Shown here: piece after piece, positions 7,558-44,499 of the stretch
Layout: every line of letters starts with the position of its first letter
Numbering within the stretch: position 1 is the stretch's first letter
Assembly (NCBI GenBank): GCA_017470325.1
Contig: JAFUES010000007.1
Span: 1-64,000 of the forward strand
Reading direction: 5' to 3'
Source of the DNA: Oscillospiraceae bacterium
GTDB taxonomy: Bacteria > Bacillota_A > Clostridia > Oscillospirales > Oscillospiraceae
Length of the DNA: 64,000 nucleotides
Translations under genes and position numbers: made by a program
The notes under the pieces: model-generated
Database searches by the model: none
Seen by the model: only the letters and a program-made list of their open reading frames with translations
What the model was told of the DNA's origin: nothing

Positions 7558-7933
7558 TGCGCAGCGTCCTCCCTATTTCTGTTTCAAGCTCCTCAATGCC
7601 GTCCTGTTCTGCAGGCGCGATGTGGACCCGGGCTGCTACCCGACCGCCGTTGCGCTTGGCATGGCCATGTTCCAGCAGATGCGCGATCATATACCGTGTC
7701 GGAGAATATACCGTAATCTCCAGCGCCGATGAGCTCTCCTTTGTGGTCTTGGTCCGCCAGCTTTTTGCATAGCGTCCGGTCCGTTCCGGAGCCCCCGCCG
7801 TGATCTCCTTCTTCACGGTATTGGCAGCTTTTTTCACAGCGGCTTTTACACCTTCTGTGGTGGTATCCGCATAATTGTCCAGCTCCTGCATAACCGCATC
7901 GGCAAGGCCGTCTATGCTCACTCGTCTGGCCAC
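7550..7933 (-). CDS. HK97 gp10-family head-tail joining protein
   Basis: The 127-residue protein of the HK97 gp10/neck family has an N-terminal helix (ISIDGLADAV-like) followed by KKAANTVKKEITAGAPERTGRYAKSW. The APxRTGxYxxSW core is the family signature. An EHGHAKRNGGRVAARVHIAPA segment follows, matching the usual H.k..GG.v...pHi.pA ending. It acts at the head-tail interface during virion assembly. Gene order (head closure, gp10, terminator, major tail) agrees with this role. Confidence 0.86.
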   Translation of the reverse strand: MARRVSIDGLADAVMQELDNYADTTTEGVKAAVKKAANTVKKEITAGAPERTGRYAKSWRTKTTKESSSALEITVYSPTRYMIAHLLEHGHAKRNGGRVAARVHIAPAEQDGIEELETEIGRTLRNG

Positions 7934-12705: not shown

Positions 12706-14295
12706 TTAAAAAACACACAGGCCGCGTTCGTCATAAACGCTGCCCGGATTCTGATTGAGGATCGCGCGGCCCATCGCCATGATCAGGGCAACGATGCCGT
12801 CGATCTTCTCTATGGATTTCGCCTTTGTCGGCTTGATATTCCCTGCCGGATCGGTATCCACCACGACATTCGACGCCATCCAGCGCAGGACCGGATTGCC
12901 GCCGTGAACCAGCTTCCCTTCCAGCATGATCTTGTAAAACTCCTTGCTGGCCGGAGACATGTCTTTATACCCCTGCCCGAAAGGAACCATCGTCAGGCCC
13001 TCGTCGATCAGGTTCTGCACCAGCATGGTCGCGTTCCAGCGGTCATAGGCGATCTCCAGCACATGATACTTTTCACAGGTCTCCTCGATAAACGCCTGCA
13101 GGAACCGGTAATCCACCACATTCCCTTCCGTCGTGATCAGGTGTCCGTTGGCAACCCAGGTATCGTAAAGCACATGGTCCCGTGCCACTCGCTGCGGGAG
13201 GGTGTCCTCCGGCAGGAAAAAGTACGGGACCACGATGTATTTTTCTGTATCATCCCGCGGAGGAAACAGCAGCACAAACGCTGTCAGGTCCGAGGTGCTG
13301 GACAGGTCCAGTCCTGCATAACAGTCTCTGCCCTTCAGCGCCTCCAGGTCGATCGGCTCGTTGCCTTTATCGAAAACATGCTCCGGTATCCACGCGACTG
13401 CCGATGACACCCACATGTTCAGGCGGAGTTGTTTAAAAACATTCAGCTCTGCCGGATTCTCCAGTGCGTTCTGATAATCTTCCCGAAAGCGCTCCAGCGA
13501 GATGGTCGCGCCGAGGGACGGATTGGCCTTATACCAGTTCTTTTCATCATGCCAGTCATCTTCATCGGTGAGACCGTAGATCGCCGGATAAAACGACGGA
13601 TCATGCCGGGTGCCCTTCATGATATCGATGGCCTTGGTATGCAGCTCATAGCAGATGGAGTCCTTGTTGTTCCCCGCCGTCGTGATGCTGATAAACAGCG
13701 GCTGGGTCCGCGCGGAGCCGGAGTACTTCGTCAGGACGTCGTATAGCTTCCGGTCCTTCTGAGCATGGATCTCGTCAAAGATCAGGCCGGAGATATTCAG
13801 ACCGTGCTTGCTGCCGGTCTCCGCCGACAGCACCTGATAAAACCCCTCCGGGTTATATGACACGATGCGCTTGATGGAGGCGTTCACCTTTGACCGCCGC
13901 ATCAGCTCCGGGCTGGCGCGGACCATCTTCTCCGCTTCTTTGTACACGATGCTTGCCTGGTTACGATCACAGGCAGCGGAGTATACCTCCGGGGACGCCT
14001 CTCCGTCTGCATACAGCAGATACAGGGCCAGCGCCGAGCTCAGGGTGCTCTTGCCGTTTTTCTTCGCGATCTCGATGTACGCATTCCGAAACTGTCGGAA
14101 GCCGTCCTCCCCGATGATGCCGAAGATGTCCCGGACGATCTGCTCTTCCCATGGAAGCAGCATGATCCGCTGCCCCTGCCACTTGCCTGTCGTATGCTTC
14201 AGGCACTGGATGAAGTTGACCGCATGATCCGCTTTCCGCTTATCATAATGGGACGTCGGCAGCATCAGAGGAGTCGGCTTGTATTTATATGCCAT
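12706..14295 (-). CDS. terL: terminase large subunit
   Basis: The 529-residue packaging motor and DNA-cutting enzyme shows a Walker A-like element (EIAKKNGKST, residues 73-82), a Walker B (GLIFDEIHAQ, about 168) and the coupling region SITTAGNNKDS. The C-terminal RNase H-like nuclease has DLSSTSDLTAF as the first acidic site and AYDRWNAT, then EKIDGIVALIMAMGRA at the end. It is translationally coupled to the small subunit (shared base at 14295). The sequence class (Terminase_1/HK97-like) agrees with cos-type packaging with an HNH partner, which is present at 20.7 kb. Confidence 0.95.
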   Translation of the reverse strand: MAYKYKPTPLMLPTSHYDKRKADHAVNFIQCLKHTTGKWQGQRIMLLPWEEQIVRDIFGIIGEDGFRQFRNAYIEIAKKNGKSTLSSALALYLLYADGEASPEVYSAACDRNQASIVYKEAEKMVRASPELMRRSKVNASIKRIVSYNPEGFYQVLSAETGSKHGLNISGLIFDEIHAQKDRKLYDVLTKYSGSARTQPLFISITTAGNNKDSICYELHTKAIDIMKGTRHDPSFYPAIYGLTDEDDWHDEKNWYKANPSLGATISLERFREDYQNALENPAELNVFKQLRLNMWVSSAVAWIPEHVFDKGNEPIDLEALKGRDCYAGLDLSSTSDLTAFVLLFPPRDDTEKYIVVPYFFLPEDTLPQRVARDHVLYDTWVANGHLITTEGNVVDYRFLQAFIEETCEKYHVLEIAYDRWNATMLVQNLIDEGLTMVPFGQGYKDMSPASKEFYKIMLEGKLVHGGNPVLRWMASNVVVDTDPAGNIKPTKAKSIEKIDGIVALIMAMGRAILNQNPGSVYDERGLCVF

Positions 14296-14768
14296 CAGAT
14301 CACACCCGCCAGAATCATGTCCATCTCAGACGCCTGATCCTGCGCGGCATTCCCCGCTATAATCCTGCTGCGGGCAGACGGCGTCAGACCAAACTCGGAA
14401 GCCGCCTGCAGCATGACTTTCTGGTTGGCATGCGAGATGGTCACCTGCGGCACCTGCTGCCAGAAGCCATTCTTGGTTTTGACGATGCTGCCGTGCTGGG
14501 AGATAAACTCCTCAGCCTCCTTCCAGCGGGCATACGCCTGACAGTACACAGCAAAGGCCGCCATATCCAACTCTGTCAGCAGGCCGAGGTTATGCATGGG
14601 GACTGCCAGACGCTCCCACTCGGCTTTTGCTTCTTCCTCCAGCCATTCCGGGCACTCCGGCAGTTTCCCCTCGGGGACCGGCTCATACAGGTTCAATGGC
14701 CGCTTGCCGGGGTTGCCTTCCAGCACCTTCAGTGCGGTTGGCTTTGGTTTTCTTCCTCTTTGTGCCAT
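14295..14768 (-). CDS. terS: terminase small subunit, P27 family
   Basis: The 157-residue protein recognises the packaging site and loads the large subunit. It begins MAQRGRKPKPTALKVLEGN, followed by GKRPLN and EAKAEWERL, the standard P27 opening. The C-terminal half carries the YCQAYARWKEAEEFI helix pair. The ATG at 14768 has GGGAGGTG positioned correctly, so longer upstream readings are discarded. It is the first gene of the virion operon, immediately downstream of a terminator that closes the small-gene array. Confidence 0.92.
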   Translation of the reverse strand: MAQRGRKPKPTALKVLEGNPGKRPLNLYEPVPEGKLPECPEWLEEEAKAEWERLAVPMHNLGLLTELDMAAFAVYCQAYARWKEAEEFISQHGSIVKTKNGFWQQVPQVTISHANQKVMLQAASEFGLTPSARSRIIAGNAAQDQASEMDMILAGVI

Positions 14769-14792
14769 TGGTATCACCTCCCGTCTGAGCAC

Positions 14793-14815
14793 AAAAAATG
14801 CAGCCCTTCGGGTGC
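14793..14815 (-). terminator. rho-independent terminator after cassette A
   Basis: On the minus strand a GCACCC/GGG(C)TGC hairpin with a GAA loop is followed by ATTTTTT. It lies between the end of the 107-residue gene and the terminase ribosome binding site. Confidence 0.55.
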
Positions 14816-14881
14816 TCACAAATCTATCTTTATAACGAGGAACACGGCCTGCTGGCCGCCTCCCCGGTTGTATGCTGTTTT

Positions 14882-15205
14882 TTATCCTCTCTTGACCTCG
14901 ACCAGCCATTCGGCTTCCGGATGGCTCTCGCCGGTTGCCTTCTCAAGGACCAGGTGTTCTTCGTCGATGTAGCAAAGGTGGTTCCCGACCTTAATGAAGC
15001 GGACCTCTTCGTAGCCTGCGAAGTCGGTGCGGTAAACGCTGGCCCTGCGGCTCTCACCGTCGTAGCTCTTGCCGTCCCAGCCGTTGAAGGTGAAGGTCAC
15101 CTTCTCGCGGGTCTTAGTGAAGTGGGCTTCGAAATCCTCGCGGGTGATCGCCGTGTTGTACTCGATCAGGTTGAGGCTGTTTCTGAGTGTGTAAATGTTC
15201 TTCAT
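14882..15205 (-). CDS. small phage accessory protein (cassette A), unknown function
   Basis: I do not recognise this 107-residue protein. It starts MKNIYTLRNSLNLIEYN, is mixed helix/strand, has many acidic and aromatic residues (FTFNGWDGKSYDGESR, VGNHLCYIDEEHLVLE), and has no signal peptide or membrane segment. The start follows GGGAGA about 8 bases upstream. Longer in-frame readings run into the promoter module and are rejected. It has its own promoter copy (module 1) and its own terminator, so it is a stand-alone transcription unit. Position and size suggest an early-expressed host-interaction gene, which is inference only. Confidence 0.72.
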   Translation of the reverse strand: MKNIYTLRNSLNLIEYNTAITREDFEAHFTKTREKVTFTFNGWDGKSYDGESRRASVYRTDFAGYEEVRFIKVGNHLCYIDEEHLVLEKATGESHPEAEWLVEVKRG

Positions 15206-15231
15206 GGTGGTGTTCTCCCTTCGTTTTGTTG

Positions 15232-15312
15232 TCCTATATATCCCTCTAAAAGTGATAAATAGCAAGTTATTTCTGCGGTTTTTCGAGGAATAATATACAC
15301 AAATAGTTCTGG
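15232..15312 (-). promoter_or_regulatory. repeated promoter module, copy 1 (drives cassette A)
   Basis: On the minus strand, a -35 TTGCTA (15261-15266) and -10 GATATA (15238-15243) are separated by 17 bases. TTTAGAGG lies inside the spacer and a distal TTTGTGT box lies at 15298-15304. The same arrangement recurs three more times in the next 2.5 kb. This copy has exactly 10 extra bases between the distal box and the -35. Confidence 0.8.
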
Positions 15313-15334
15313 GAGAAGCTGTTTAGAATGTACA

Positions 15335-15358
15335 AGAGAAAGGCCCCTTTCGGAGCCT
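15335..15358 (-). terminator. possible terminator after cassette B
   Basis: On the minus strand GGCTCC-GAAA-GGGGCC is followed by TTTCTCTT. The stem has one imperfect pair and the T-run is interrupted, so efficiency is uncertain. Confidence 0.42.
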
Positions 15359-15374
15359 GCCGGTTTTGTCCGGC

Positions 15375-15848
15375 TTAAAGGCTGAAGCGGATGCCCTGCA
15401 CTTCGTAGGGCTCTTCCTCGCCCCAGCGGGTTTCCTTCCGGGTGATGGTGCACAGCCCTTCCAGCCTGCAGCCTTCTGCGGCAAACTGGTGAAGGTTCTC
15501 CATGACCGCAGTGCTCTGGTTGGTGTACACAAAGCTGCTGAAGCCCGCCTCCTTCAGGGCCGCAAGGAAATCGTGGACCTCTTTTTCCCAAAGGAAATCG
15601 TCCATCTCGATCTCGTCCTCGCTGCGGAGGATGCTGGATTTCCAGGCGCGGTACGCCTTGCTGGTGCCCTGGCTGAAGGGAAACTTTGCAGCCTCGTCCT
15701 CTGCGTACCATGCCTTGAGCTCGGCGCTTTCCCAGCCAAGGGTATCGATGATCCGCTGCTTGCGGGCCTGACGCTCGGCTCTGGCAGCCTCGTACTCGCA
15801 GCCGATGCGGTAAAGGTTATCGAAGTAGGTGTTGGTGGTGTTCATCAT
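15375..15848 (-). CDS. small phage/plasmid accessory protein (cassette B), unknown function
   Basis: The 157-residue soluble acidic protein is not assigned to a function. The N-terminal half is helical (YRIGCEYEAARAERQARKQ), the middle carries DTLGWESAELKAWYAEDEAA, and the C-terminal part looks like a small alpha/beta domain (EAGFSSFVYTNQSTAVMENL, GCRLEGLCTITRKETRWG). Two adjacent Met codons begin the gene, and an AGG-rich site precedes it. It is monocistronic between promoter module 2 and a weak terminator. Its pattern (one small protein per promoter) resembles phage and plasmid early anti-host gene arrays. Confidence 0.72.
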   Translation of the reverse strand: MMNTTNTYFDNLYRIGCEYEAARAERQARKQRIIDTLGWESAELKAWYAEDEAAKFPFSQGTSKAYRAWKSSILRSEDEIEMDDFLWEKEVHDFLAALKEAGFSSFVYTNQSTAVMENLHQFAAEGCRLEGLCTITRKETRWGEEEPYEVQGIRFSL

Positions 15849-15884
15849 GGTGATGGCCTCCTAAAAAAGTGTAGTTTACCTTTC

Positions 15885-15955
15885 GGCATGTACATATATT
15901 GCTCTAAAGGGCCATAATAGCAAGTTATTTCGACACCATAATATGCACAAATATG
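15885..15955 (-). promoter_or_regulatory. repeated promoter module, copy 2 (drives cassette B)
   Basis: Minus strand: -35 TTGCTA at 15918-15923, 17-base spacer containing TTTAGAGC, -10 AATATA at 15895-15900, distal TTTGTGC box at 15945-15951. Its 5' leader shares TTTCGGCATGT with copy 4, defining a subfamily. Confidence 0.8.
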
Positions 15956-15983
15956 AGCACCGGAAGCTGGTATAAATAGACAA

Positions 15984-16006
15984 CAAAAAAGCAGGCCGCT
16001 GCCTGC
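15984..16006 (-). terminator. rho-independent terminator after cassette C
   Basis: The minus strand has a perfect GCAGGC-AGCG-GCCTGC hairpin followed by TTTTTT, downstream of the 68-residue gene. Confidence 0.75.
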
Positions 16007-16047
16007 CGCACAACGAGGAACACAGCCTCCCGGCTGCATCCCTTTTC

Positions 16048-16254
16048 TTATCCCCTGCCGGTATTCGCCCGGACCGTCTTCGCCCGATCCAGCGCCTGCT
16101 TGAGCAGCCCGCGGATCTCCTTCATACGCTCGATGTCATCTGGCATGGCCCCGGCCGGATCGTAGCGGATGGTCTCAAGGGCACCGTAGATGTCTGCTGC
16201 GTAGGAAAGCGCGTCGTCGGTCAGTGTGTAGACCTTCTCTTCAATCGCGTTCAT
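16048..16254 (-). CDS. small helical protein (cassette C, second gene)
   Basis: The 68-residue soluble protein MNAIEEKVYTLTDDALSYAA... consists of two or three amphipathic helices (DIYGALETIRYDPAGAM, ERMKEIRGLLKQALDRAK). No known motif is visible. The ATG at 16254 has GGAGG 7 bases upstream and lies two bases after the stop of the preceding gene, so the two are coupled. A longer reading in this frame exists but overlaps the upstream gene in a different frame and is rejected. The downstream sequence GTGTTCCTCGTT is shared with the 3' region of cassette A. Confidence 0.72.
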   Translation of the reverse strand: MNAIEEKVYTLTDDALSYAADIYGALETIRYDPAGAMPDDIERMKEIRGLLKQALDRAKTVRANTGRG

Positions 16255-16256
16255 GC

Positions 16257-16541
16257 TCAGTCCTCCGTGTGCGCCATCGCCCATGCGATCGCGTGGCCGT
16301 CGTCGGTGAACTCGACCTCGCTGGCGCTTCTCAGGCCGATCGTTCCTTCGCAGGAAAGGTCGTCGTCCAGATGTTCGTACACCGCGCCGAAGTAGCAGGG
16401 CTTGTTCTGTCCGTTGTAGTAATACCCGGCGAGGAGCACCTTGTCTCCAAAGTTCAGGACCTTGCTCCACCGGCACTCCAGATCCTCCGGGGTGGTGGGA
16501 TTCGGAAGTCTGTAGGTTCTCATCGCGTTGTTGATCGTCAT
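16257..16541 (-). CDS. small accessory protein (cassette C, first gene), unknown function
   Basis: The 94-residue beta-rich acidic protein starts MTINNAMRTYRLPNPTTPED, followed by SKVLNFGDKVLLAGYYYNGQ and EVEFTDDGHAIAWAMAHTED. It is not recognised. The layout (short strand pairs with FGDKVLLAG) suggests a small SH3-like or OB-like barrel, but this is only a guess. It is the first gene behind promoter module 3, about 25 bases from the -10, and is coupled to the 68-residue gene. Confidence 0.72.
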   Translation of the reverse strand: MTINNAMRTYRLPNPTTPEDLECRWSKVLNFGDKVLLAGYYYNGQNKPCYFGAVYEHLDDDLSCEGTIGLRSASEVEFTDDGHAIAWAMAHTED

Positions 16542-16564
16542 GGCGTTTGCCTCCTTTGTTTTTG

Positions 16565-16633
16565 TGACCTATATATCCCTCTAAACCGGGATAATATCAA
16601 GTCAATTCGAAGGCATAATGTACACAAAGATTC
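16565..16633 (-). promoter_or_regulatory. repeated promoter module, copy 3 (drives cassette C)
   Basis: Minus strand: -35 TTGATA at 16595-16600, 17-base spacer with TTTAGAGG, -10 GATATA at 16572-16577, distal TTTGTGT at 16622-16628. It shares CCTATATATCCCTCTAAA (plus-strand reading) with copy 1. Confidence 0.8.
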
Positions 16634-16701
16634 GCGCCGAAACCTGTGTATAATGTACGACCAAGAGAGCCATCCGGCCCTCTGGTACTTTGTTTTCTGT
16701 T

Positions 16702-16920
16702 TTACAGCTTCCGGACCGTGTCCACCCGCCAGAGCACGTTCAGGCCGGAGCCGTTGTCCCAAGCCATCAGCAGGCTGCCGGTGTCGTCCACACCGAGGAC
16801 CGTGCCGCCGGTGCCGGGAGGCGGAGCCTGCTCATCGTCCATGCTGACAAGCTCCACGCGGGTGCCGCGCGGGTAGGCTGCCCGGAGCTGCTGCAGCTCT
16901 GCCTTCGTAATCCCCCTCAT
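16702..16920 (-). CDS. DUF4314-type small protein (cassette D, second gene)
   Basis: The 72-residue protein starts MRGITKAELQQLRAAYPRGT, then RVELVSMDDEQAPPPGTGGT and VLGVDDTGSLLMAWDNGSGL. The PRGTRVELVSMDDxxAPPxGTxGTVxGVDDxGSLxVxWDNGSxL pattern is that of DUF4314 proteins, common in Firmicutes conjugative elements and phages and of unknown biochemical role; an SH3-like barrel is likely. The ATG at 16920 has GGAGG 7 bases upstream and overlaps the stop of the preceding gene by 4 bases. Confidence 0.85.
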   Translation of the reverse strand: MRGITKAELQQLRAAYPRGTRVELVSMDDEQAPPPGTGGTVLGVDDTGSLLMAWDNGSGLNVLWRVDTVRKL

Positions 16921-17696
16921 GCGTTTTCCTCCTGCGATGCCGCCGCAGCCTTGGCTGCATCGCGCTTGGCCTTCTGCGCCGCGCTGAAGGCGTCTGCCGC
17001 GGCTTTGTTGGGGAAGGCCGCATTGCCGGAGAGCCGTTTCAGGAGGATCGCACGCTGGGCCTTGCTTTCGTTGCCTTTGAAGCCCATGCGGAGGAGCCAG
17101 ACGCGGAAGGAAAACTTCTCGCTCTCGACGTCCTTCTCGTAGCTGGTCACGCGCTTGGCCTGCTTCGCCATCGAGCATAGCGCTGCGATGAAAGCCATGT
17201 AAGCCTGAATCTCCTCCGGGCTAGGCATGGTGTCCCACCAAGGGAAGCACACTCTGTCACCCTTCACCTGAATGGTCAGGCGATCCGCGGCCAGTGCCTT
17301 CTGCGTCAGGCGGGCCTTGCTGTCCACCAGCTTCTGCAGCCTGTCAAGGCTGTCCGGGTTGAAGCCGTCCAGCGGCAGGCTGATCTCCAGCCCTTCCTTC
17401 TCCGCAGCCTCGGTGCTCTCCTCAGTGGCAGGCGCGGCTTCCGGGGTGTTCCGGAGATCCGGTTCCTCTTCCGGCTCAAAGCCCGCGGCCTTGATCTCGT
17501 CGTAAACCTTGAGGATGGTGCCATTGTCGACCGTGTCGTCCCAGCTCAGGATGCCGGTCTTGTCGACCGTAAAGCCGCCGATGCGGTAGGCCATGGTCGG
17601 GACGCCTTCGTAGGTGCCCTTCTCGCCGGTGGCGTGGGTGATGATGCTGACCAGTCTCTTGCGGTCGCTGCCGGTAACGTTGAAATTGATGCTCAT
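16917..17696 (-). CDS. conserved mobile-element protein (cassette D, first gene)
   Basis: The 259-residue protein starts MSINFNVTGSDRKRLVSIIT and is often found beside DUF4314 genes in clostridial elements, sometimes labelled virulence-related; no function is established. The N-terminal domain (1-75) has an IGGFTVDKTGILSWDD strand region. An acidic linker (EPEEEPDLRNTPEAAPATEE) follows. The C-terminal domain (about 105-245) begins LEISLPLDGFNPDSLDRLQK and ends in an Ala/Lys-rich helix. The first gene of the unit lies behind promoter module 4. Confidence 0.75.
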   Translation of the reverse strand: MSINFNVTGSDRKRLVSIITHATGEKGTYEGVPTMAYRIGGFTVDKTGILSWDDTVDNGTILKVYDEIKAAGFEPEEEPDLRNTPEAAPATEESTEAAEKEGLEISLPLDGFNPDSLDRLQKLVDSKARLTQKALAADRLTIQVKGDRVCFPWWDTMPSPEEIQAYMAFIAALCSMAKQAKRVTSYEKDVESEKFSFRVWLLRMGFKGNESKAQRAILLKRLSGNAAFPNKAAADAFSAAQKAKRDAAKAAAASQEENA

Positions 17697-17739
17697 GGGG
17701 TGCCTCCTAAAAATGTAAATGTCCGCGGGGTTCTCCCTT

Positions 17740-17812
17740 TCGGCATGTTCATATTCGCTCTACTCCGCAGATATAGCAAGTTAATTCGGAGGCATATTGT
17801 ACACAAAGATTT
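17740..17812 (-). promoter_or_regulatory. repeated promoter module, copy 4 (drives cassette D)
   Basis: Minus strand: -35 TTGCTA at 17774-17779, 17-base spacer ending TAGAGC, -10 GAATAT at 17751-17756, distal TTTGTGT at 17801-17807. The spacing from distal box to -35 is identical to copies 2 and 3. Confidence 0.78.
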
Positions 17813-17841
17813 GCAGCTGGAATTGTTCATAATACAGCACA

Positions 17842-19074
17842 TTATGCTGCATTTTTGACCGCTTCCGCATATGGAATCTTCTGCCCGTCCCGGACCAGAA
17901 AGATCTGATCGGCGCTGCCGACCTGGGCCAGATACCGGTTGACGATCACATCGGCATACTTCGGGTCCAATTCAACCGTATAGCAGATCCGCTTCAGCTG
18001 ATCCGCCGCGATAAGCGTGCTGCCCGAGCCGCCGAAGGGGTCCAGCACAATGCAGTTGCTCATGGAGCTGTTTTTGATCGGGTAGGCGATCAGGTTGACC
18101 GGCTTCATCGTCGGGTGCAGATCATTCTTCTTGGGTTTATCATATTCCCATACCGTGGTCTGCTTCCGGTCTGCATACCACTGATGCCGCCCGCCCTTCT
18201 TCCAACCGAAGAGCACAGGTTCGTGTAACCATTGATATGGGCTCCGGCCCAGCACCAGACTGTTCTTTTTCCAGATGCAGCAGCCGGAAAGATAAAAGCC
18301 AGCCTCCTCGAATGCTCTCCGAAAGGCCAGCCCGTGCGAATCACTGTGGAAAACATAAATGGACGCGTCGTCCATCATGTTCTGTTCCATATTGACATAT
18401 GCGGCAAAGAGGAACTTTTCAAACTGCTCCTCTGCCATTTTATCGTTTTTGATCTTCCCAGCGGAACCTTCATAGTCCACGTTGTACGGAGGATCGGTCA
18501 CCACGAGATTGGCCTTCCGGCCTGCCATCAGCAGATCGTAGGTCTCCGGCAGCGTACTGTCGCCGCAGACGAGCCGGTGCTCACCGAGCAGCCACAGGTC
18601 CCCTTCCCGGGTGACGGTCGGCTGCTGAAGCTGGGCATCGATATCAAACTCATCCTCCACGATCTCCTTGTCGTGGACAGAATTCATGAGCTGCTCGATC
18701 TCCGGAGGATCGAAGCCGGTGAAGGTTACATCGAAATCCGAATCTTGCAGCTCTGCGATCAGATCGGCCAGAAGCTCCTTGTTCCATTCGCCGGTGATCT
18801 TGTTCAGCGCGATGTTCAGAGCACGCTCTTTGGTCTTGTCGATATCGATCACAATGCAGTCGATTTCGGTATAGCCCAGGTCCTTCAGGACCGTCACGCG
18901 CTGGTGGCCGCCGATGATGGTCATGTCGCTGTTCACGATGATCGGCTCACAGTATCCGAATTCCTCGATGCTGCGCTTGATCTTCTCATATTCTTTATCC
19001 CCCGGCTTCAGCGCTTTCCGGGGATTATATGACGCGGGCACAAGGTCCGCGATCTTGATTTTTCTCAGGTTCAT
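17842..19074 (-). CDS. ParB-domain / DNA methyltransferase fusion (beta class)
   Basis: A 410-residue adenine-N6 or cytosine-N4 methyltransferase is fused to a ParB/Srx-like domain. Residues 1-100 carry SYNPRKALK and TIIGGHQRV, the ParB nuclease-like core. The catalytic TDPPYNVDY is at 193-201 and the SAM-binding DPFGGSGST is at 345-353. DPPY before FGG identifies the beta group. The target is not predictable. Such phage enzymes protect DNA from host restriction or regulate packaging. It has AAGGAG 6 bases before ATG. A SAM synthetase gene is carried 2 kb upstream. Confidence 0.93.
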   Translation of the reverse strand: MNLRKIKIADLVPASYNPRKALKPGDKEYEKIKRSIEEFGYCEPIIVNSDMTIIGGHQRVTVLKDLGYTEIDCIVIDIDKTKERALNIALNKITGEWNKELLADLIAELQDSDFDVTFTGFDPPEIEQLMNSVHDKEIVEDEFDIDAQLQQPTVTREGDLWLLGEHRLVCGDSTLPETYDLLMAGRKANLVVTDPPYNVDYEGSAGKIKNDKMAEEQFEKFLFAAYVNMEQNMMDDASIYVFHSDSHGLAFRRAFEEAGFYLSGCCIWKKNSLVLGRSPYQWLHEPVLFGWKKGGRHQWYADRKQTTVWEYDKPKKNDLHPTMKPVNLIAYPIKNSSMSNCIVLDPFGGSGSTLIAADQLKRICYTVELDPKYADVIVNRYLAQVGSADQIFLVRDGQKIPYAEAVKNAA

Positions 19075-21962: not shown

Positions 21963-22382
21963 TTACTGCAATTTATCAAGATCCTTCTGAATTTCCTCAA
22001 GCGCCAGATCGTGGAGCTGGAACAAGCGTCGATTAGAATAGTTCAGTTCCACAGCGATCTCTGGCCATGGTGCCCAGCAGAGGTACCGGCGCTCAAGAAT
22101 CAGCCTGTAATCCGTATTCTTCACAGAGTTGATCCTTGCCGTGATCTCCGCCTTCAGGTCGACCAGAGCGTCGATGTCGCTGTTGATCTCATTCTGCAGA
22201 TCCACTATTTTTACAATGATGTTCTCAAAGGACGCCGCGCCTTTATTCGGATTGTGCGGCATGCCGGAGAGCACCGATGTGGCTTTGGTGGCCAGATCGT
22301 TCAATGTGGAAAGCTGCTCAATTTTGCTGTTGATCCGCTGGTTCAGCAGATAAGCCTGACTCAAATACTCTCTTGCTGTCAT
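21963..22382 (-). CDS. DUF1492 / ArpU-like phage regulator
   Basis: The 139-residue protein resembles DUF1492, a family with a sigma-70-like C-terminal helix-turn-helix often acting as late-gene activators in Firmicutes phages. The N-terminus is a long helix (MTAREYLSQAYLLNQRINSKIE). The C-terminal region LERRYLCWAPWPEIAVELNY and NRRLFQLHDLALEEIQ is the HTH. It sits at the end of the early region, where an activator of the late operon would be expected. It overlaps the upstream small gene by 4 bases, so is coupled to it. Confidence 0.85.
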   Translation of the reverse strand: MTAREYLSQAYLLNQRINSKIEQLSTLNDLATKATSVLSGMPHNPNKGAASFENIIVKIVDLQNEINSDIDALVDLKAEITARINSVKNTDYRLILERRYLCWAPWPEIAVELNYSNRRLFQLHDLALEEIQKDLDKLQ

Positions 22383-33021: not shown

Positions 33022-34260
33022 CTAGCTATACATCAGCCCCGGCATCTTCACGCTGTCCCTTCCGTCGTCCGGCATTTTTAGATCATGCAGCAGTGTCGCA
33101 TAGGTCAGCGCTCTTTTTCCATATCGGCTGCGGACGTCCTCTATGGCATCCTGCAGGCGCTCCATCTTGGCCCGCCGCTCCGCATCATCAAAGAGCGTCA
33201 ACTGATCCGGCAGGGCCTTGGGAGCCAGATCAATCGCGCGGACACAGACAGCGCGGACATGATTGTTCCACTTATATCGCTCCTGAAACAGCTTGAAGCC
33301 CGCAGCCGCGATCTCAGACGGAAGCTGCGTCCGGACCGGCAGCTTGCACTGGAATTGAGCCCCATATAGGTCGTTAGTCCGCACGTAGATCTGCACTCCC
33401 CTTGCGGTCAGCTCATGCACGCGGAGGCGATGGCCGACGTCTTGTGATAGCTCCAGCATGACGCGGAAGACCTCTTCTTCATTTTCCAAATCGGCCACAC
33501 AGGTAATGCCGTGCCCGACAGATTTGATTGGAGAAACATAGTCTTTATGGGCCACCCGGCTCATGTCCTGCCCGGAGGCATACTGCCACAGCGCCACACC
33601 GTTGATCCCCAGCAGCCTTTTCAGGAACGCCGGGTCCGCGTGCGCAACGTCACCGATCGTGTGATACCCGTAGCTCTCCAGCTTTCGCGTGGTCGCAGGG
33701 CCACAGTAGATCATCTCGGAGCAGTGCAGCGGCCAGACCTTGTCCCGGAAGTTCTCCCGGGTGATCTCCGTGATGGCGTCCGGCTTTTTCATATCGCTGC
33801 CCAGCTTGGCAAAGATCTTATTAAAGGACACCCCGACGCTGACGGTCATACCGAGCTCATCCCGGACGCTCTGGCGGATCTCCTCGGCAATCTCCATCGG
33901 GGAGCCATACACGGAGCTCTGGGTGACGTCCACCCAGCACTCGTCCATGCCGAAGGGCTCAACCATGTCTGTATAGCGATTATAGATCGCACGGGTCAGC
34001 TTACTGTATTTCAGATATTGATCATATTGCGGAGGCACCAGAATTAAATCCTTGCACTTCTGCTTTGCCTCCCAGTTGACCATGCCGGTTTTGACACCGG
34101 CCTTCTTCGCCAGCTCCGACTTGGCCAGCACGATCCCGTGCCGATCCTCGGTCGCTCCGCACACAGCCACGGCCTTCCCTTTCAGCCGCGGATCAAGCAT
34201 CATCTCCACACTGGCGTAAAAGCTGTTCAGGTCACTGTGCAGGATCGCTCTGCTGTTCAT
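33022..34260 (-). CDS. Y-family DNA polymerase (Pol IV/UmuC-like)
   Basis: The 412-residue translesion polymerase has metal sites in HSDLNSFYASVE (D10) and FGMDECWVDV (D106, E107), and GVSFNKIFAKLGSD as the fingers/palm motif. A helix-hairpin-helix region (SYGYHTIGDVAHADPAFLKR) and a C-terminal little-finger domain follow, with PDQLTLFDDAE at 351-361; QLTLF is the beta-clamp-binding motif. It would allow mutagenic bypass in lysogens. It is divergent from the S24 repressor, with overlapping control, so SOS induction is likely. Confidence 0.93.
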   Translation of the reverse strand: MNSRAILHSDLNSFYASVEMMLDPRLKGKAVAVCGATEDRHGIVLAKSELAKKAGVKTGMVNWEAKQKCKDLILVPPQYDQYLKYSKLTRAIYNRYTDMVEPFGMDECWVDVTQSSVYGSPMEIAEEIRQSVRDELGMTVSVGVSFNKIFAKLGSDMKKPDAITEITRENFRDKVWPLHCSEMIYCGPATTRKLESYGYHTIGDVAHADPAFLKRLLGINGVALWQYASGQDMSRVAHKDYVSPIKSVGHGITCVADLENEEEVFRVMLELSQDVGHRLRVHELTARGVQIYVRTNDLYGAQFQCKLPVRTQLPSEIAAAGFKLFQERYKWNNHVRAVCVRAIDLAPKALPDQLTLFDDAERRAKMERLQDAIEDVRSRYGKRALTYATLLHDLKMPDDGRDSVKMPGLMYS

Positions 34261-37757: not shown

Positions 37758-38684
37758 TTACAAATCTTCACTGAAGAAATCCGAATCGACTCGCTTAACT
37801 TCATACGTCTGTTCTACAGCTACTCCGAGATTATACTTGATCATGAGCTTTGTAAGCTGGTTTCCATCGATTAATACTATGTTAGAGCCGAGCAGATTGG
37901 CCGCAAAATCCTGTGCATCTTTGGTAAATTCCGTAGTAGTGATAAAAAGCCCCTTTGTTGCTTTCTCTCCCTGAAGAGCACCAGCAAATTTCTGGACTTC
38001 CGGTCGGCTCACTTTGTGGTCAGCTGACCATTTTTTTGCTTGAATATAAATGTTGTTGAAGCCTAGCTGATCCTCTTTTATGATCCCGTCTATACCACCG
38101 TCACCTGTTGCCCTGGTAACCTTCCCTGCATCCTCAATACCGTAGCCATAACCCATCTTCAAGAGAAGTTTCACTACTAAGGTTTCGAATTCTGTCGGCT
38201 CCAGCCCCATCACCATATCCATGAGTTCTCCGCCGAGAGAAGCATTCATCTTATCAAAAGCAGCGCTCATGATCTCAGTAGGAGTTTTCTCTTCCTCTTC
38301 CTGCTGGGCCGTTACTGTTTGCGGCTGCTTTCCACCGCTGGGATTAACTGTATGAAACTGTCGGAAGGAATCATAACGATCGAGGTATTTTAGATCAATT
38401 GTTTCCCCTGAATGTAACGCCTTATGTCCTTCGTTTGTAATTTGATAGTGTCCGCGTGAAGGTGTTGTAATTAGACCGGCTTTATCAAGATATGTACGTG
38501 CCCAGTTTATCCTATTGACATATGTAGCCTGGCGCTGACTAGGCAACTGCTCAGCCATGTCTTCTTCACTCAGGTTCATGTCTGCAGCAATTAACTTCTG
38601 TACATCCTTTGACTTATGTACCTCGCCATCATCCACAGCACGAAGGAAAGATCCAAAAAACTCGTAGAATTTAGGTACCGCCAT
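37758..38684 (-). CDS. mrr: Mrr-type restriction endonuclease
   Basis: The 308-residue protein has an N-terminal winged-helix (Mrr_N: FYEFFGSFLRAVDDGEVHKS, residues 5-95) and a C-terminal Mrr catalytic domain with PTEFETLVVKLLLKMGYGYG, ATGDGGIDGIIKEDQLG (metal-binding Asp) and YIQAKKWS (QxK), the PD-(D/E)XK core. Mrr enzymes cut methylated DNA or act on DNA in the type IV manner. It shares the operon direction of the type I genes upstream. The middle linker (QQEEEEKTPTEIMSA) is acidic. Confidence 0.92.
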   Translation of the reverse strand: MAVPKFYEFFGSFLRAVDDGEVHKSKDVQKLIAADMNLSEEDMAEQLPSQRQATYVNRINWARTYLDKAGLITTPSRGHYQITNEGHKALHSGETIDLKYLDRYDSFRQFHTVNPSGGKQPQTVTAQQEEEEKTPTEIMSAAFDKMNASLGGELMDMVMGLEPTEFETLVVKLLLKMGYGYGIEDAGKVTRATGDGGIDGIIKEDQLGFNNIYIQAKKWSADHKVSRPEVQKFAGALQGEKATKGLFITTTEFTKDAQDFAANLLGSNIVLIDGNQLTKLMIKYNLGVAVEQTYEVKRVDSDFFSEDL

Positions 38685-38759
38685 GTTAACACCTCATTTA
38701 CGCAGTATGTGTTTGCTTATTCCCGATTACAGGTCACTCCAGCGATGAGACGCAATAGC

Positions 38760-39980
38760 TCACACAAACATCTGCTGCAGCAGACCTTTCTTCAGTTTCT
38801 TCCATAGTTCCAGTTCCTTCTTTGCTGCCGCAATCGCTTCGTCGAAATCGGAAAGGAAATCTGCGATAAGACGCTGCTCTTCGAGGCAAGGAATACCAAC
38901 TGTCATTTGAAGCAAGTCTGCTGGACTAACTGCCATACGCTCATATACAGTCCCTTGTTGATACTTTAAAGCACGTTGTATAAAAGCCTCATTCGTCACA
39001 ACCATTTCAATAAACTCTGGTGCATATTTTTCATTAACCGTGAATGTTACATAAATAGGAGAAAAGATAGCATCTTTATATTTATTCCTGCAAATAACAC
39101 CAAATTTCAAATTCGCTGGATTATAGCAAATGTCATTTAAGTGTGTCACTCTATACTTTTTATCTTCCGTAGTAACCAGGAAGTCGCGCTCATAACGCTC
39201 TGTCTTAGGAACTACGCCTTCTTTTGTCAGAGATACATGTTCGTATGTTCCATCTTTTTCACACATCTCTTTATATTCTGACAAAATATCAGCCAGTAAT
39301 ATTTCTTCCCAGTCAGGAAAAACACTTCCATCTTTCTTCTTAAAACGCACATCCTGTGAGAAAACCTTCTTCATTGCCGCTTTCTTTTGCGTCTCCAGAT
39401 TTACAACTTCATGTTCGCCATTAGAAATTACTTCATCGATAGAATAGAGGAAATCTGCGATTTTCTGCTGTTCTTCCTTACTAGACGGAACAGAAAGTTG
39501 AATCTTGAAGAAATCATTAGGTGAGACGTTCAACAGCCCATGATTTCTTGCCCCTTCAGCACAAATCTGCGGCATCTGATTGTACCAACTTAAACCGTTG
39601 AAATAACAATCATAAAAATCAGAATTCTGATCTTCATTTATTGCAAAACAAATATACAGGGTAGACAATGCACCCATATCATATTTATCCAGACGTTTAA
39701 TAGAACCATAATCGTAGCCCGCCGAATAACTCTTATTATAGGCAAACTCTCCATTCTTCAAAAGAAAGTACCCAGACATATCCTTACTAGCGATGGTTTT
39801 GTTAAAATATGTCCTCTGGTCTACAAGCCCTTCAATAGAAGCAATCGTCAATGGCCTATCAGTCTCACCATTTGTGTTTTTTCGTGTAATTCTTGTAGCA
39901 ATATCTCCAAGAACAACATTATTCCACGAAGGATAACTACTACCGTCATCCTTCCTAAATCTTACTTTCGGTTCTGCCAT
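38760..39980 (-). CDS. hsdS: type I restriction-modification specificity subunit
   Basis: The 406-residue target recognition protein has two DNA-recognition halves of about 150 residues, each starting with a similar PEWKxx element (SSYPSWNNVVLGDIATRI, SVFPDWEEILLADILSEY). Each ends in a conserved helix with SSKEEQQKIADFLYSIDEVI or CLEEQRLIADFLSDFDEAI. The helices separate the two recognition domains, so the target is bipartite. It lies 11 bases downstream of hsdM. No repeats that would suggest phase variation are seen. Confidence 0.95.
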   Translation of the reverse strand: MAEPKVRFRKDDGSSYPSWNNVVLGDIATRITRKNTNGETDRPLTIASIEGLVDQRTYFNKTIASKDMSGYFLLKNGEFAYNKSYSAGYDYGSIKRLDKYDMGALSTLYICFAINEDQNSDFYDCYFNGLSWYNQMPQICAEGARNHGLLNVSPNDFFKIQLSVPSSKEEQQKIADFLYSIDEVISNGEHEVVNLETQKKAAMKKVFSQDVRFKKKDGSVFPDWEEILLADILSEYKEMCEKDGTYEHVSLTKEGVVPKTERYERDFLVTTEDKKYRVTHLNDICYNPANLKFGVICRNKYKDAIFSPIYVTFTVNEKYAPEFIEMVVTNEAFIQRALKYQQGTVYERMAVSPADLLQMTVGIPCLEEQRLIADFLSDFDEAIAAAKKELELWKKLKKGLLQQMFV

Positions 39981-39991
39981 AATGCGTCACC

Positions 39992-41572
39992 TCACAATCC
40001 CAGCAACTTCATAGTGCTGTTTACCTTATCGATAGCAGCCTGCTTTTTGGCTGTAATATCAGCCAATTCAGACTTCACCGCCGCAATATCAATTTCTTCT
40101 TCCTTTTCAGATATATCCACATACCTTGGGATGTTGAGATTCCAGTCATTTTCAATGATTTCATCAATGGTGACTACACGCGCATAACGCTCCACATCTA
40201 CACGATTAACATAGGTCTCAACGATTTTCTGAATGTTCTCATCCGTCAGTTCATTCTGCACTTTACCTGGCTTGAATTCCTTACTGGCATCGATGAACAG
40301 GATATTCCCAGAATTACCATTTCTCTTGCTCTTCAGAACAAGAACAACAACAGGAATGCTTGCACCATGGAACAGGTTTGCAGGCAGACCAATGACCGCA
40401 TCCAGCCTGTTCAAATCCTTAATCAGATACTTTCTAATGTCTTCCTCAGCACCGCCACGGAACAGAACACCGTGGGGGAGAAGAACTGCTACTCGTCCGT
40501 CTGTCTCGTCCATGTGATAAACCATGTGCTGAAGGAAAGCAAAGTCAGCATGGCTCTTCGGAGCCAACTTACCTACACCAGAATAACGCGGATCATCCAG
40601 ATACTTGCTGTCCGCTGACCACTTCAGGGAGTACGGAGGATTGCAGACCTGTACGGTCAGCTTCAGATCATCCCCGTACATGTCGTTTACAAGGGTATCG
40701 CCCTTATAGATATCAAAGTTCTGATAGTCTACGCCATGCATCAGCATGTTCATACGGGCAAGGTTGTACGTTGTCGGATTGTTTTCCTGTCCATAGAAGT
40801 GACCGACTTTCTGCTTGGTAAGATGCTTCTGCGTCTCAAGCAACATAGAGCCAGAACCGCAGGTGCAGTCACCGACTGTCTTGGCTTCGTCCAGGCCAAG
40901 TGTCGCCAGAGTCGCACACAGCTTGGACGGGCCTGTCGGTGTAAAGAACTCGCCGCCTTTCTTGCCAGCACCAGACTGGAAGAGACCGATCAGAATCATG
41001 TACGCCGTGCCCAACACGTCAAACTGCTGATCCTGCAGGTTCATGTCGATCTCACCGATCTTGGCAATGACCTTGCCAATCTTCTCGGTACGTTCAGAAA
41101 CCGTATCTCCAAGCCTTGTATCCTGAAGACGCATGTCATTGAACAAGCCCTCGAAAGCCTTCTCAGACTTGTGACCAAGGGTAGAGCCTGTCAGTTCGTT
41201 CACAGCACGCTCGTAATCTTCCACAGAGAACTTGTCGGCATCCCCATTTGGCTTGATAATCCGCCTGTTCAGTTCACGGAACAGGTTCTCAGGACGGATA
41301 ATATATCCCAGATGCTCAAGCGACCACTGTTCGACGATGGGCTTGAAATCCTCATCAGTGAAAGCCTGCTCGTAGGTCAGACCGTCTTCCTTCAGTATAT
41401 CTTCCATGTACATCTCGGTACGCTCAGACAGATACCTATAAAAGATCGTCCCTAAGATATAGTTCCTAAACTCGTTAGCGTCCATGCCGCCACGAAGATC
41501 ATTTGCTATCGCCCACAGTTGCGATGATAAATCAGCCGCCTGCTTTTGAAGTTTATTGGTATCAATTGCCAT
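39992..41572 (-). CDS. hsdM: type I restriction-modification methyltransferase subunit
   Basis: The 526-residue adenine-N6 methyltransferase has a helical N-terminal domain (QLWAIANDLRGGMDANEFRN), GGEFFTPTGPSKLCATLATL, SAM motif GDCTCGSGSMLLET (usually DPTCGSGS, here D-C-T), and the catalytic CNPPYSLKW. It works with HsdS to modify and with HsdR to cut. The proline missing in motif I should be tolerated but is unusual. The overlap-free 2-base gap to hsdR indicates one operon. Confidence 0.95.
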   Translation of the reverse strand: MAIDTNKLQKQAADLSSQLWAIANDLRGGMDANEFRNYILGTIFYRYLSERTEMYMEDILKEDGLTYEQAFTDEDFKPIVEQWSLEHLGYIIRPENLFRELNRRIIKPNGDADKFSVEDYERAVNELTGSTLGHKSEKAFEGLFNDMRLQDTRLGDTVSERTEKIGKVIAKIGEIDMNLQDQQFDVLGTAYMILIGLFQSGAGKKGGEFFTPTGPSKLCATLATLGLDEAKTVGDCTCGSGSMLLETQKHLTKQKVGHFYGQENNPTTYNLARMNMLMHGVDYQNFDIYKGDTLVNDMYGDDLKLTVQVCNPPYSLKWSADSKYLDDPRYSGVGKLAPKSHADFAFLQHMVYHMDETDGRVAVLLPHGVLFRGGAEEDIRKYLIKDLNRLDAVIGLPANLFHGASIPVVVLVLKSKRNGNSGNILFIDASKEFKPGKVQNELTDENIQKIVETYVNRVDVERYARVVTIDEIIENDWNLNIPRYVDISEKEEEIDIAAVKSELADITAKKQAAIDKVNSTMKLLGL

Positions 41573-41574
41573 AA

Positions 41575-44499
41575 TTAGTTTTCCTCCGCTTTATACTTCA
41601 TGTAAGTCTGACCGACGAAATCTTTGATTTCCTTCGTCAGTTTCGTAATCTTCAAGAGTCCAAGATGATAAGCCATCAGACGCTTACGGATAGATTCATC
41701 CGAAATGCCGCCGTTGAAGATATACTCAACCATAATATCATTCACAGTCGCATAGTCTATCCCATGGCTGAACGCGAATTCTTCCATCTCTGCTTTCTCA
41801 TGTTCCTGAGCAAACTCCTCAAAAGCAGCCATAATGTCAGCATCTTCGGAGAGATCATAGAAACGCGTTCTTACGAACTCGGACATGATATCCTTCTTCG
41901 CACGCAGGGACTCGTTATCGGAACGCTCAATCTCACGAAGAATGAGATCCAGATCCGCTTCACGGTCTTCAGTCTTCCGGTTCTTCTGAACACTTTTCAA
42001 AAGATTCAGAATGTAGACCACGTTGATACGGTCTGTACGCACCAGTTCAATATCGAAGTCGATATCGACAGGGACAGGCACTTTGGGATTATCCTTACCG
42101 CCCTGATCCTTGTAGTACAGATACCAGGACTTATAGCCCTCGTATTCTTCCTCGTCCATCACGACCGCAAGATCGGCCCAATCGAACTTAGAGAAGGTCT
42201 TCAGCGTTGCCAGAATGCCTACCATTGTACGGAAAGCAATGATAAACATACGGATTTCATCTTCACTCTGAAGCTGGCCAGCATCATCAACCGTAGGTGT
42301 AACCTTACGGATGATCGGCTCCTGATTGATCCACTTCTGTACGTAGTACTCGTAGTTCTCAAGCAGATATTCATTCGGATCGCCGTCACCAGAGAACAAG
42401 CGTAGCGCGTCATCCTGCCACTGCTTGATGTTTCTGTATGTAATAATCTGCCCGAACTGTTTTGTTACCTTATCAACACGGTTTGTACGGCTATATGCCT
42501 GCACCAGTGTATGCCAGATAAGGTTCTTGTCCAGGTACAGCGTGTTCAGCGGTTTCGCATCAAAGCCAGTCAGCATCATGTTAACTACCAGAAGGATGTC
42601 TACCTGTGGAAGATCCTTCTGCTTCATACGCTTTGTGATATCCTTCCTGTATGCATCAAAATTCTCAATGCTGTAGGAAGTGCCGAACATCCCGTTATAA
42701 TCGTCCATGATACGGGAAAGCAATTCTGCCGAATGCTCGTCGCCCTTACCATCCATGTCCTCATTCGCACCGTAACTGAAGATGGCAGCGATCTTATAAC
42801 GATCCTCTTCAGCTCTTGCCGCGTTCAGTTCCTTAAACACATCATAATACTGTCCAAGGGTTTTGATAGAATCCACGGCAAACAAAGCCGTATAGATGTC
42901 CTTGCCCTGCGGATGCACATGTTGTTCATGATGCTCAAGGATATGTTCCGCAATCTTACGGATACGCTCATCGTCATGATACAGGTTATCAATGTCGATA
43001 TTATGCCGCTTGCAGTACTCAGGGTCGTCCAGCTGCTCAGGGTCAATCCCTTTCATAGCGATGCCACGGGCGAACAGAGTGCGCTGATACTCAACCGAGA
43101 AGCGGAGCACGTTACCATCCGCAATTGCATCCTTAATCATGTAGCGGTGCAGACAGGCATCACGCTTGGAACCATCAGGCATCAAGCCTGCATTGAATAC
43201 ATCAGCTGTGGTCCTGCCGTCAGCACCTTTGTTGGCTTCGAAGATCGGCGTTCCTGTGAAGCCGATATAATTGGCTCTCTGGAAGTGGCGTTCAATATCT
43301 CCATGCATCTTACCGAATTGGGAGCGGTGACACTCATCGATAATGAAGACCACCTTCTTATCCCGGTAAGAGTCCATTAAGGCTTCATAGCGCTTCGATT
43401 TGACCGCATTCGCCATTTTCTGGATGGTCGTTACAATCAGTTTACGGTCAGAGTCCTGCAACTGCTTAACCAACACATAGGTGCTGTCAGAGTTATCGAC
43501 ACAATCCTTTTCAAAAGAATTGTATTCATCAACAGTCTGGTCATCGAGATCCTTACGGTCGATGAGGAAGATAACCTTATCAACTCTCGGCTCATCTCTA
43601 AGGAGCTGTGCCAGTTTGAAGGACGTCAGCGTTTTGCCAGACCCGGTACATGCAAAGACATAGCCGTTCTGATTTGCTTCCAGCACACGGCGTCTTGCTG
43701 CCTTCACAGCGTAAATCTGATACGGGCGCATCACCATCAGGATCGGTTCAGTGGACTTGATTACCATGAACTTGTCAATCATCTCGGTGATAGCGGCCTT
43801 GCGGAAAAACTCGGAAGTAAACTCTTCAAGCGTATTGATACGCTTGTTCTTGTCATCCGTCCAGAAAAAGACAAGGCTCTTCAGGATTGGATTGTACATG
43901 CCGTCCTGCATCTCGTTCTCATTGCAGAAATACTTCGTCTGCACAGAGTTGGAGACTACGAACAGCTGCAGATAGCGAAAGAGGCCCTTGAACGAGAATT
44001 TCCTATAACGGTTGATCTGATTTATGGCTTCGTTGATCTCGACACCCGGGCGCTTCAACTCAACCTGAATAAGCGGCAGACCGTTGATCAGGATCGTCAC
44101 ATCATATCTATTTTTGTAGGAGACATCGTCCTTATGGGCAGGGTCCATCGTGATCTGATGGGCAACCTGGTAGATGTTTCTGCCAGTATCATACGAGAAG
44201 AAATCCAGATAAACTGTCTTCCCGTTATCGAGCGTCAAAACGTACTTATCACGGAGCAGCTTCGCAGACTCATACACAGAATGGTTGTCCAGATGAATCA
44301 AGACACGGTTCCATTCAGCATCGCTGAAGGAAGCGGAGCCCTTGGCTTCCTTTAACTTCACAGCATTGAACGCGGCAAGTTGCTCACGGCAGTTCGCAAG
44401 TACGTCATCATAATTGCCCAGTTCAGCATAATGATAGCCGATGGACTCAAGGCGATCTATAAACTTCATCTCGACTTCATATTCTGAAATACGAGGCAT
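41575..44499 (-). CDS. hsdR: type I restriction endonuclease subunit
   Basis: The 974-residue motor and nuclease has an N-terminal PD-(D/E)XK domain with the ILINGLPLIQVELKRPG catalytic element (about residues 135-151). The helicase has ATP site FACTGSGKTLTSF (about 279-291), FIIDECHRSQFG (DEAH-like) and FTGTPIF. RecA-like domain 2 includes AYSRTNRVDK. The C-terminal helical region docks on the methylase. First gene of the operon. All motifs are intact, so restriction is probably active. Confidence 0.95.
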   Translation of the reverse strand: MPRISEYEVEMKFIDRLESIGYHYAELGNYDDVLANCREQLAAFNAVKLKEAKGSASFSDAEWNRVLIHLDNHSVYESAKLLRDKYVLTLDNGKTVYLDFFSYDTGRNIYQVAHQITMDPAHKDDVSYKNRYDVTILINGLPLIQVELKRPGVEINEAINQINRYRKFSFKGLFRYLQLFVVSNSVQTKYFCNENEMQDGMYNPILKSLVFFWTDDKNKRINTLEEFTSEFFRKAAITEMIDKFMVIKSTEPILMVMRPYQIYAVKAARRRVLEANQNGYVFACTGSGKTLTSFKLAQLLRDEPRVDKVIFLIDRKDLDDQTVDEYNSFEKDCVDNSDSTYVLVKQLQDSDRKLIVTTIQKMANAVKSKRYEALMDSYRDKKVVFIIDECHRSQFGKMHGDIERHFQRANYIGFTGTPIFEANKGADGRTTADVFNAGLMPDGSKRDACLHRYMIKDAIADGNVLRFSVEYQRTLFARGIAMKGIDPEQLDDPEYCKRHNIDIDNLYHDDERIRKIAEHILEHHEQHVHPQGKDIYTALFAVDSIKTLGQYYDVFKELNAARAEEDRYKIAAIFSYGANEDMDGKGDEHSAELLSRIMDDYNGMFGTSYSIENFDAYRKDITKRMKQKDLPQVDILLVVNMMLTGFDAKPLNTLYLDKNLIWHTLVQAYSRTNRVDKVTKQFGQIITYRNIKQWQDDALRLFSGDGDPNEYLLENYEYYVQKWINQEPIIRKVTPTVDDAGQLQSEDEIRMFIIAFRTMVGILATLKTFSKFDWADLAVVMDEEEYEGYKSWYLYYKDQGGKDNPKVPVPVDIDFDIELVRTDRINVVYILNLLKSVQKNRKTEDREADLDLILREIERSDNESLRAKKDIMSEFVRTRFYDLSEDADIMAAFEEFAQEHEKAEMEEFAFSHGIDYATVNDIMVEYIFNGGISDESIRKRLMAYHLGLLKITKLTKEIKDFVGQTYMKYKAEEN

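Follow-up and report, generated by a model that had tools for sequence, protein, structure and literature searches.

The array and its promoter-like module

The 64,000 nucleotide stretch of Oscillospiraceae bacterium DNA analysed here (contig JAFUES010000007.1, assembly GCA_017470325.1; "the window") contains a prophage related to Candidatus Heliusvirales phages, and this report concerns an array of four small-gene cassettes, each behind a copy of one promoter-like module, that occupies the interval between its DNA methylase and terminase genes. The best-matching annotated records include Ca. Heliusvirales phages of human faeces at ~69–75% DNA identity. All features of the array lie on the minus strand, and transcription is predicted to proceed from 17.8 to 14.9 kb; a ParB_N plus N6_N4_Mtase methylase (Pfam; 17,842–19,074) is the last gene before the array, and the terminase small subunit gene terS (14,295–14,768, start codon picked by its ribosome-binding site) and then the large subunit gene follow it. 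Along the direction of transcription the four units, here cassettes D, C, B and A, encode a 259 amino acid (aa) protein, D259, with a DUF4314 protein; an Nmad4 protein with a 68 aa protein; a DUF7698 protein; and a 107 aa protein. The six open reading frames listed in a preliminary description of this DNA are all present. The same kinds of genes fill the corresponding interval in Heliusvirales relatives, some of which add an amidoligase and a gamma-glutamyl cyclotransferase.

The module consists, 5' to 3', of a dyad TACACAA-N16-TTGTGTA with AT-rich outer arms, AAWTNAC, TTGMTATTAT, five unspecified bases, TTTAGAG and a −10 element that is CGAATATG or GATATAT (the GATATA/GAATAT type). The preliminary description placed four units behind one promoter module, and indeed TTG[CA]TA followed by TAGAG is found four times in the 64 kb, at 17,779, 16,600, 15,923 and 15,265 of the minus strand, and nowhere on the plus strand. 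The distance from the start of a TTTGTGT box (TTTGTGC in one copy) to the −35 is 28 bases in three copies; in the copy at 15,265 it is 38 bases, so that the identical spacing previously ascribed to copies 2, 3 and 4 was right.

Scored with a position weight matrix (PWM) trained on 86 nonredundant sites, the window's better copies among them, copies D, C, B and A reach 38.7, 32.3, 33.6 and 22.2 bits, respectively, and the top score in 970 kb of Markov-shuffled control sequence is 5.0. Copy D (17,748–17,836) has half-sites at 17,829–17,823 and 17,806–17,800, core TTGCTA at 17,779, a dyad match of 12/14 and a dyad offset of −27 from the −35 hexamer; copy C (16,569–16,657) has half-sites at 16,650–16,644 and 16,627–16,621, core TTGATA at 16,600, a match of 13/14 and the same offset; copy B (15,892–15,980) has its TTGCTA core at 15,923; and copy A (15,234–15,332) has half-sites at 15,325–15,319 and 15,302–15,296, core TTGCTA at 15,265, a match of 12/14 and an offset of −37, ten bases further out. 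The distance from module to start codon is 48–148 nucleotides (nt), with a median of 73.

The module in related phages

Eight sources (the window, six long phage stretches and the stretch L005) were scanned with a 25-position consensus. At no more than six mismatches there are 17 sites across the eight sources, all of them between methylase and terminase, and none in the control; allowing seven mismatches adds three sites (control, 0.4), one of which lies elsewhere, before a recombinase gene (position 7773 of locus L071). The window copy at 15,265 is more than seven mismatches from this consensus. An exact-pattern search retrieved 61 stretches from IMG/VR and 64 from the genome collection, and 62 of the latter contain a gene for TerL, portal, methylase or D259/amidoligase, and the other two a recombinase gene.

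An independent set of loci was chosen by D259 protein homology alone, as the best 80 of at least 583; the 80th row, L017, is one of the training loci and was excluded, and at least two of the remaining 79 share contigs with training loci (L146 with L025 and L213 with L013). With a threshold of 14 bits the module is present in 67 of these 79 loci, or 59 of 68 when only nonredundant loci are counted, so the question raised in the preliminary description, whether modules are absent from orthologous loci, came out for the module. Every one of the 103 modules in these loci is on the gene strand, and shuffles gave none. Each of the 12 loci below threshold has a weaker or variant core 60–83 nt before D259: six have cores like TGGATATAT-N8-TGACGGTAATAT at 60–61 nt (68 in L167), and the other six have cores of the first class that score 7.1–11.2 bits. 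By these counts the module is neither a product of chance nor peculiar to the window.

One to six modules lie upstream of TerL in the 142 loci that have both a module and a large terminase gene, and the last of them is 389–2727 bp before TerL. Further modules lie downstream of the TerL start in eight of these loci, namely L031 (8235 and 8552), L106, L118, L053, L102, L116, L091 and, far away, L071. The first genes after modules fall into 36 clusters. Before these counts were made, rows L001–L004 (pieces of records refetched as L070, L067, L068 and L069), sites without 85 bases upstream and near-identical rows (80–85% limits) were dropped. To our knowledge little is known about gene regulation in this gut phage group; in the accessible text of the open-licence literature we found no description of the module or of the hairpin discussed below, and Heliusvirales by name only in a review.

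The dyad and candidate factors

Both half-sites of the dyad are within one mismatch in 88 of 214 nonredundant modules, with a spacing of exactly 23 bases in 76 of the 88, and no shuffle has both. When the 23-base geometry is fixed, 115 of the 214 match at 11 or more of the 14 positions (shuffles, 0.6 in total), and the offsets of these 115 from the −35 hexamer are −27 (46 sites), −26 (54), −37 (11), −16 (3) and −41 (1), which apart from one site are spaced by whole helical turns. Window copy A belongs to the −37 class, as does its counterpart in L137 (10/14 match). If the −35 and −10 elements are taken as usual, the centre of the dyad is near −71.5 or −81.5 from the start site, and class I activators typically sit near these positions. 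Given such helix-phased offsets, a factor bound there would probably contact RNA polymerase from a single helix face, and the phasing makes a clear prediction for an activator.

The reading that we favour, and consider fairly probable, is that of a prophage accessory array with one module per cassette, a common activator at the dyad and an end at the pre-terminase element described below. One dimeric or higher-order activator would bind the dyad, whose position relative to the start is about −71.5 or differs from this by one turn, and would recruit RNA polymerase from one helix face, and because it would be common to all the cassettes, they would all switch together. Shared control of the four units, as the preliminary description had it, is well supported by the module's orthologous place, single strand and helix-phased dyad positions. 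An inverted repeat close to a promoter might also be an operator through which a prophage repressor silences the cassettes in the lysogen; however, its centre lies ~35 bp upstream of the −35 hexamer and is shifted by whole turns, as would suit an activator, and the site is common to diverse phages (whose repressors were left out of the comparison), so we think a repressor site very unlikely.

A number of observations weigh against a common activator at the dyad. The dyad reaches 11/14 in only those 115 of the 214 modules and is weak (8/14) in window copy B, and other half-site spacings occur (31 placements at 28 bases versus 99 at 23). The −10 matches the sigma-70 consensus poorly, and a promoter scan of the window called none of the four modules. 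Eight core sites (11.0–34.5 bits) before D259 or a neighbour have dyad matches of 9/14 or less, and they lie in loci of Streptococcus phages Javan630 and Javan105, Erysipelothrix phage phi1605, a Peptoclostridium record and a Syntrophomonadaceae phage. Sorted by type of core, dyads of at least 11/14 accompany 86 of 123 GAATATG, 13 of 29 second-class and 11 of 96 GATATAT nonredundant modules, the last of which means that the core does not need the dyad; core and dyad are separable. Finally, serine recombinase genes also lie downstream of the core (4 in one set, 10 in another), and no dyad was present at the recombinase cores checked (0/3 nonredundant, and 0/2 nonredundant from nine), which hints at a more general promoter. 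Dyad-less cores before serine recombinase genes are at L047 2066, L071 7773 and L087 3490.

The core classes bear on the same question. The second class, TGGATATAT-N8-TGACGGTAATAT, occupies the same place, partly under the same dyad, in L166, L168, L204, L222, L264 and others. Two or more modules occur in 190 loci: 158 have only first-class modules, 21 have only second-class ones and 11 are mixed, versus a permutation mean of 48 (minimum 39) mixed loci; because redundant loci remain among the 190 and a separate pattern was used to retrieve the second-class set, these class counts describe a non-random sample. The small number of mixed loci could be explained by common descent, shared contigs or the mode of fetching, and since mixed loci exist, both classes can serve one phage, a further point against the activator reading.

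Morons of temperate phages are extra genes with their own promoter and often a terminator, and the modules could be ordinary moron promoters that the host RNA polymerase uses in the lysogen, in which case a conserved host regulator would bind the dyad. The core upstream of recombinase genes and the core alone in Streptococcus and Erysipelothrix phages would agree with this, as would a dyad that varies little across hosts of several bacterial families while the phage proteins diverge. Yet the genome-collection stretches bear phage genes in 62 of 64 cases and a recombinase in the other two, no host regulon with the core appeared, and the −10 is far from consensus; we regard this explanation as rather unlikely.

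A second candidate factor is the phage's own. The window has a DUF1492/PHROG 36 gene (21,963–22,382, minus strand; family match), of the Ltr/RinA/ArpU type by position, and in 28 of 33 long loci hidden Markov model (HMM) searches find PHROG 36-type genes upstream of the array, while two of the other five (L071 and L072) match PHROG 36 too. The position and size of these genes fit the Ltr/RinA activators as the accessible part of PMC13123087 presents them, and there the promoter that precedes the terminase genes of S. aureus phage Phi13 has repeats between −107 and −42 through which Ltr acts, much the place that the dyad occupies here. The array could thus be a set of duplicated late promoters under this late activator. 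Against this, dyad sequence does not covary with the PHROG 36 protein over the 28 loci (Spearman 0.03; partial correlation ~0; permutation p 0.25 and 0.40), a comparison of low power since the dyad varies little; L219 has a DUF1492 gene and the core module without the dyad; second-core-class loci carry similar regulators, as judged by eye; and most loci have a terminator between array and terminase. It is because of the absent dyad covariation and L219 that we keep PHROG 36 as a rival only, one that is possible but that we doubt. In L234, L247, L251 and L273 a second-class-like site lies at the end of a 153 aa gene in the usual PHROG 36 position, and precedes a ~153–156 aa gene outside all clusters.

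Array ends, cassette products and known systems

That each cassette ends in its own hairpin, as stated earlier for the window, holds in part: hairpins follow cassettes D, C and B, the one after D (16,660–16,686) has no U-run, and a multi-hairpin element follows A. Cassettes C and B end in intrinsic terminator-like hairpins (15,990–16,007 and 15,341–15,358; terminator search and fold), so that two of the three internal junctions in the window have a terminator. Among the loci, terminators occur at 6 of 100 nonredundant internal junctions (shuffled, 1%) and at 3 of 81 junctions before the first module, versus 78 of 103 nonredundant loci before the terminase (shuffled, 1%), so that one terminator per cassette, the plain expectation, is not what relatives show.

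The 3' element GTGTTCCTCGTT that cassettes A and C were noted to have in common proved to be the 3' side of a conserved hairpin, and in relatives the terminator before the terminase comes after the hairpin that bears it. In the window this GNRA-type hairpin with UGUUCCUCGUU occurs after cassette C (16,007–16,058, E 1.3e-8) and again before the terminase (14,829–14,880, E 1.1e-9), both copies being rows of the model's own alignment. The covarying hairpin with UGUUCCUCGU is seen at these two places on the minus strand, at 11,630–11,681 in L149 and in others. The alignment began with 43 nonredundant candidates, of which three inside coding sequence were removed and 40 kept, and one window copy was added; in these 41 copies, six of eight pairs are changed on both sides, five measures are reached by 0–4 of 500 shuffles, and slid versions score lower. 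The hairpin model has 60 matches at E <0.01 in 58 of 87 sources, its own training rows included, and Rfam gave no match at E up to 1 in 14,700–17,900 and none at gathering in six loci.

The copies repeated at cassette borders might suggest that the module serves recombination or packaging at the DNA level and lies upstream of genes by happenstance, and the hairpin occupies a position at which cos sites are often located. The fixed strand and distance to start codons argue otherwise, as does a hairpin with compensatory changes that occurs twice in the window, and we give this idea almost no credence.

The fold of the window before terS comprises three parts: the hairpin, then a weak AU stem, then a final hairpin with a T-run (14,793–14,815; sequence and fold) ~25 nt from the start codon; the terminator search scored none before terS in the window, which again tells against the favoured reading. 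In relatives the array appears to end in a covarying RNA hairpin plus terminator just before the terminase. In most of 21 loci that were read, the T-run lies too near the terminase start for a promoter to fit between them, and transcription would therefore have to reach the late operon by read-through or from a start within the array. For the activator reading this would mean that cassette transcripts end at the hairpin-plus-terminator element directly before the terminase, and that the terminase operon would depend on read-through, its start being too near the terminator to leave space for a promoter; if none fits there, the hairpin raises the question of how the late genes switch on. A wider proposal is that Firmicute phages have a dedicated promoter system with interchangeable TTTAGAG/TGACGG cores, a helix-phased dyad and a putative factor, in which late genes are gated by regulated read-through of the array via a structured RNA terminator before the terminase, rather than by a late promoter. 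As a whole we think this unlikely.

DUF4314 had been thought the only named family among the six proteins. The DUF4314 protein D72 (16,702–16,920) matches at 2e-28, but Pfam matches above cut-off also include Nmad4 (nucleotide modification associated domain 4) for C94 (94 aa; 16,257–16,541; 9.9e-24) and DUF7698 for B157 (157 aa; 15,375–15,848; 2.7e-11), and D259 (16,917–17,696), the first cassette gene and one kept in relatives, matches PHROG 2443, an amidoligase family. C68 (16,048–16,254) has no match in Pfam, PHROGs or NCBIfam, and A107 (14,882–15,205), with 908 relatives at E 0.001 in a protein search, has no named family. Although a Pfam search gave D259 no PF12224 match, comparison with the amidoligase PF12224 profile indicates full-length homology (probability 99.8, E 2.3e-29; four control profiles <1). 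The GVE(V/I)EM motif of amidoligases is catalytic; in the alignment D259 has INFNVT near its position and lacks ~50 central residues, and it is probably an inactive, shortened relative of the phage amidoligases. Since cassette 1 is homologous to the amidoligase cassette of relatives, the cassettes would have been gained at least partly by duplication of module plus gene. All six genes are under purifying selection relative to L137 (dN/dS 0.11–0.27). Their families suggest protein or nucleotide modification at most, and the products are probably modification-related accessory proteins.

The earlier suggestion of an anti-restriction or host-takeover function found no backing: the defence library PADLOC gave no match for the six proteins at E 0.01, a fold search with A107 gave no confident match, and scans of Pfam, PHROGs and NCBIfam, in which no dedicated anti-defence library was included, did not find known anti-restriction or anti-CRISPR proteins. 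Early timing of the array is likewise unsupported. An early island of this kind would account for small proteins in separate units, for the methylase, SAM-synthetase-like gene and Nmad4 nearby, and for the type I and Mrr restriction genes elsewhere on this stretch, but the array adjoins the terminase and has no early-gene context, and together with the PADLOC result this makes such an island highly improbable. The window's Mrr-type IV enzyme and type I specificity and restriction genes are at 37,758–44,499, an ImpB/MucB/SamB-family DNA polymerase gene is at 33,022–34,260, and a group II intron with a reverse transcriptase reading frame lies near the prophage late region at 3–1838, all on the minus strand.

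Anti-defence islands of plasmid leading regions are rows of small genes with separate promoters. The likeness to them proposed for this array stands for the layout; it does not extend to the phage location, the dyad upstream of the promoter or the lack of a known anti-defence family, and the one plasmid record that has D259 has it among phage genes. The array resembles morons in its extra genes and in having a predicted promoter-like module before each of four units, but here one module is common to the cassettes and to related phages, and few junctions (the 6 of 100 above) have internal terminators. The SAS/ESAS repeats of cluster K mycobacteriophages are conserved inverted-repeat elements before many phage genes, with SAS at the translation start, whereas here the element is a promoter-like module that lies a median of 73 nt before the start codon.

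In C. clostridioforme prophages an amidoligase (PF12224) and a gamma-glutamyl cyclotransferase are reportedly accessory genes (PMC11318856). The same families occur in the array of relatives, with the amidoligase behind the same module, but the accessible part of that paper describes no shared promoter, and the window array holds only the shortened relative, with neither amidoligase nor cyclotransferase. The late promoters of staphylococcal phages under Ltr/RinA are alike in lying near the terminase genes and, in the accessible part of PMC13123087, in having repeats upstream of the −35 that are needed for activation. In that system, however, one promoter serves one late operon, the repeats are direct and no terminator is expected before the late operon, whereas here one to six copies each precede an accessory cassette, the repeats are inverted, and most loci have a terminator before the terminase. 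The module would mark a co-regulated accessory gene set from sequence alone, and so offers a handle on accessory genes of mostly obscure function; on this evidence the array is a new variation on co-regulated phage accessory cassettes.

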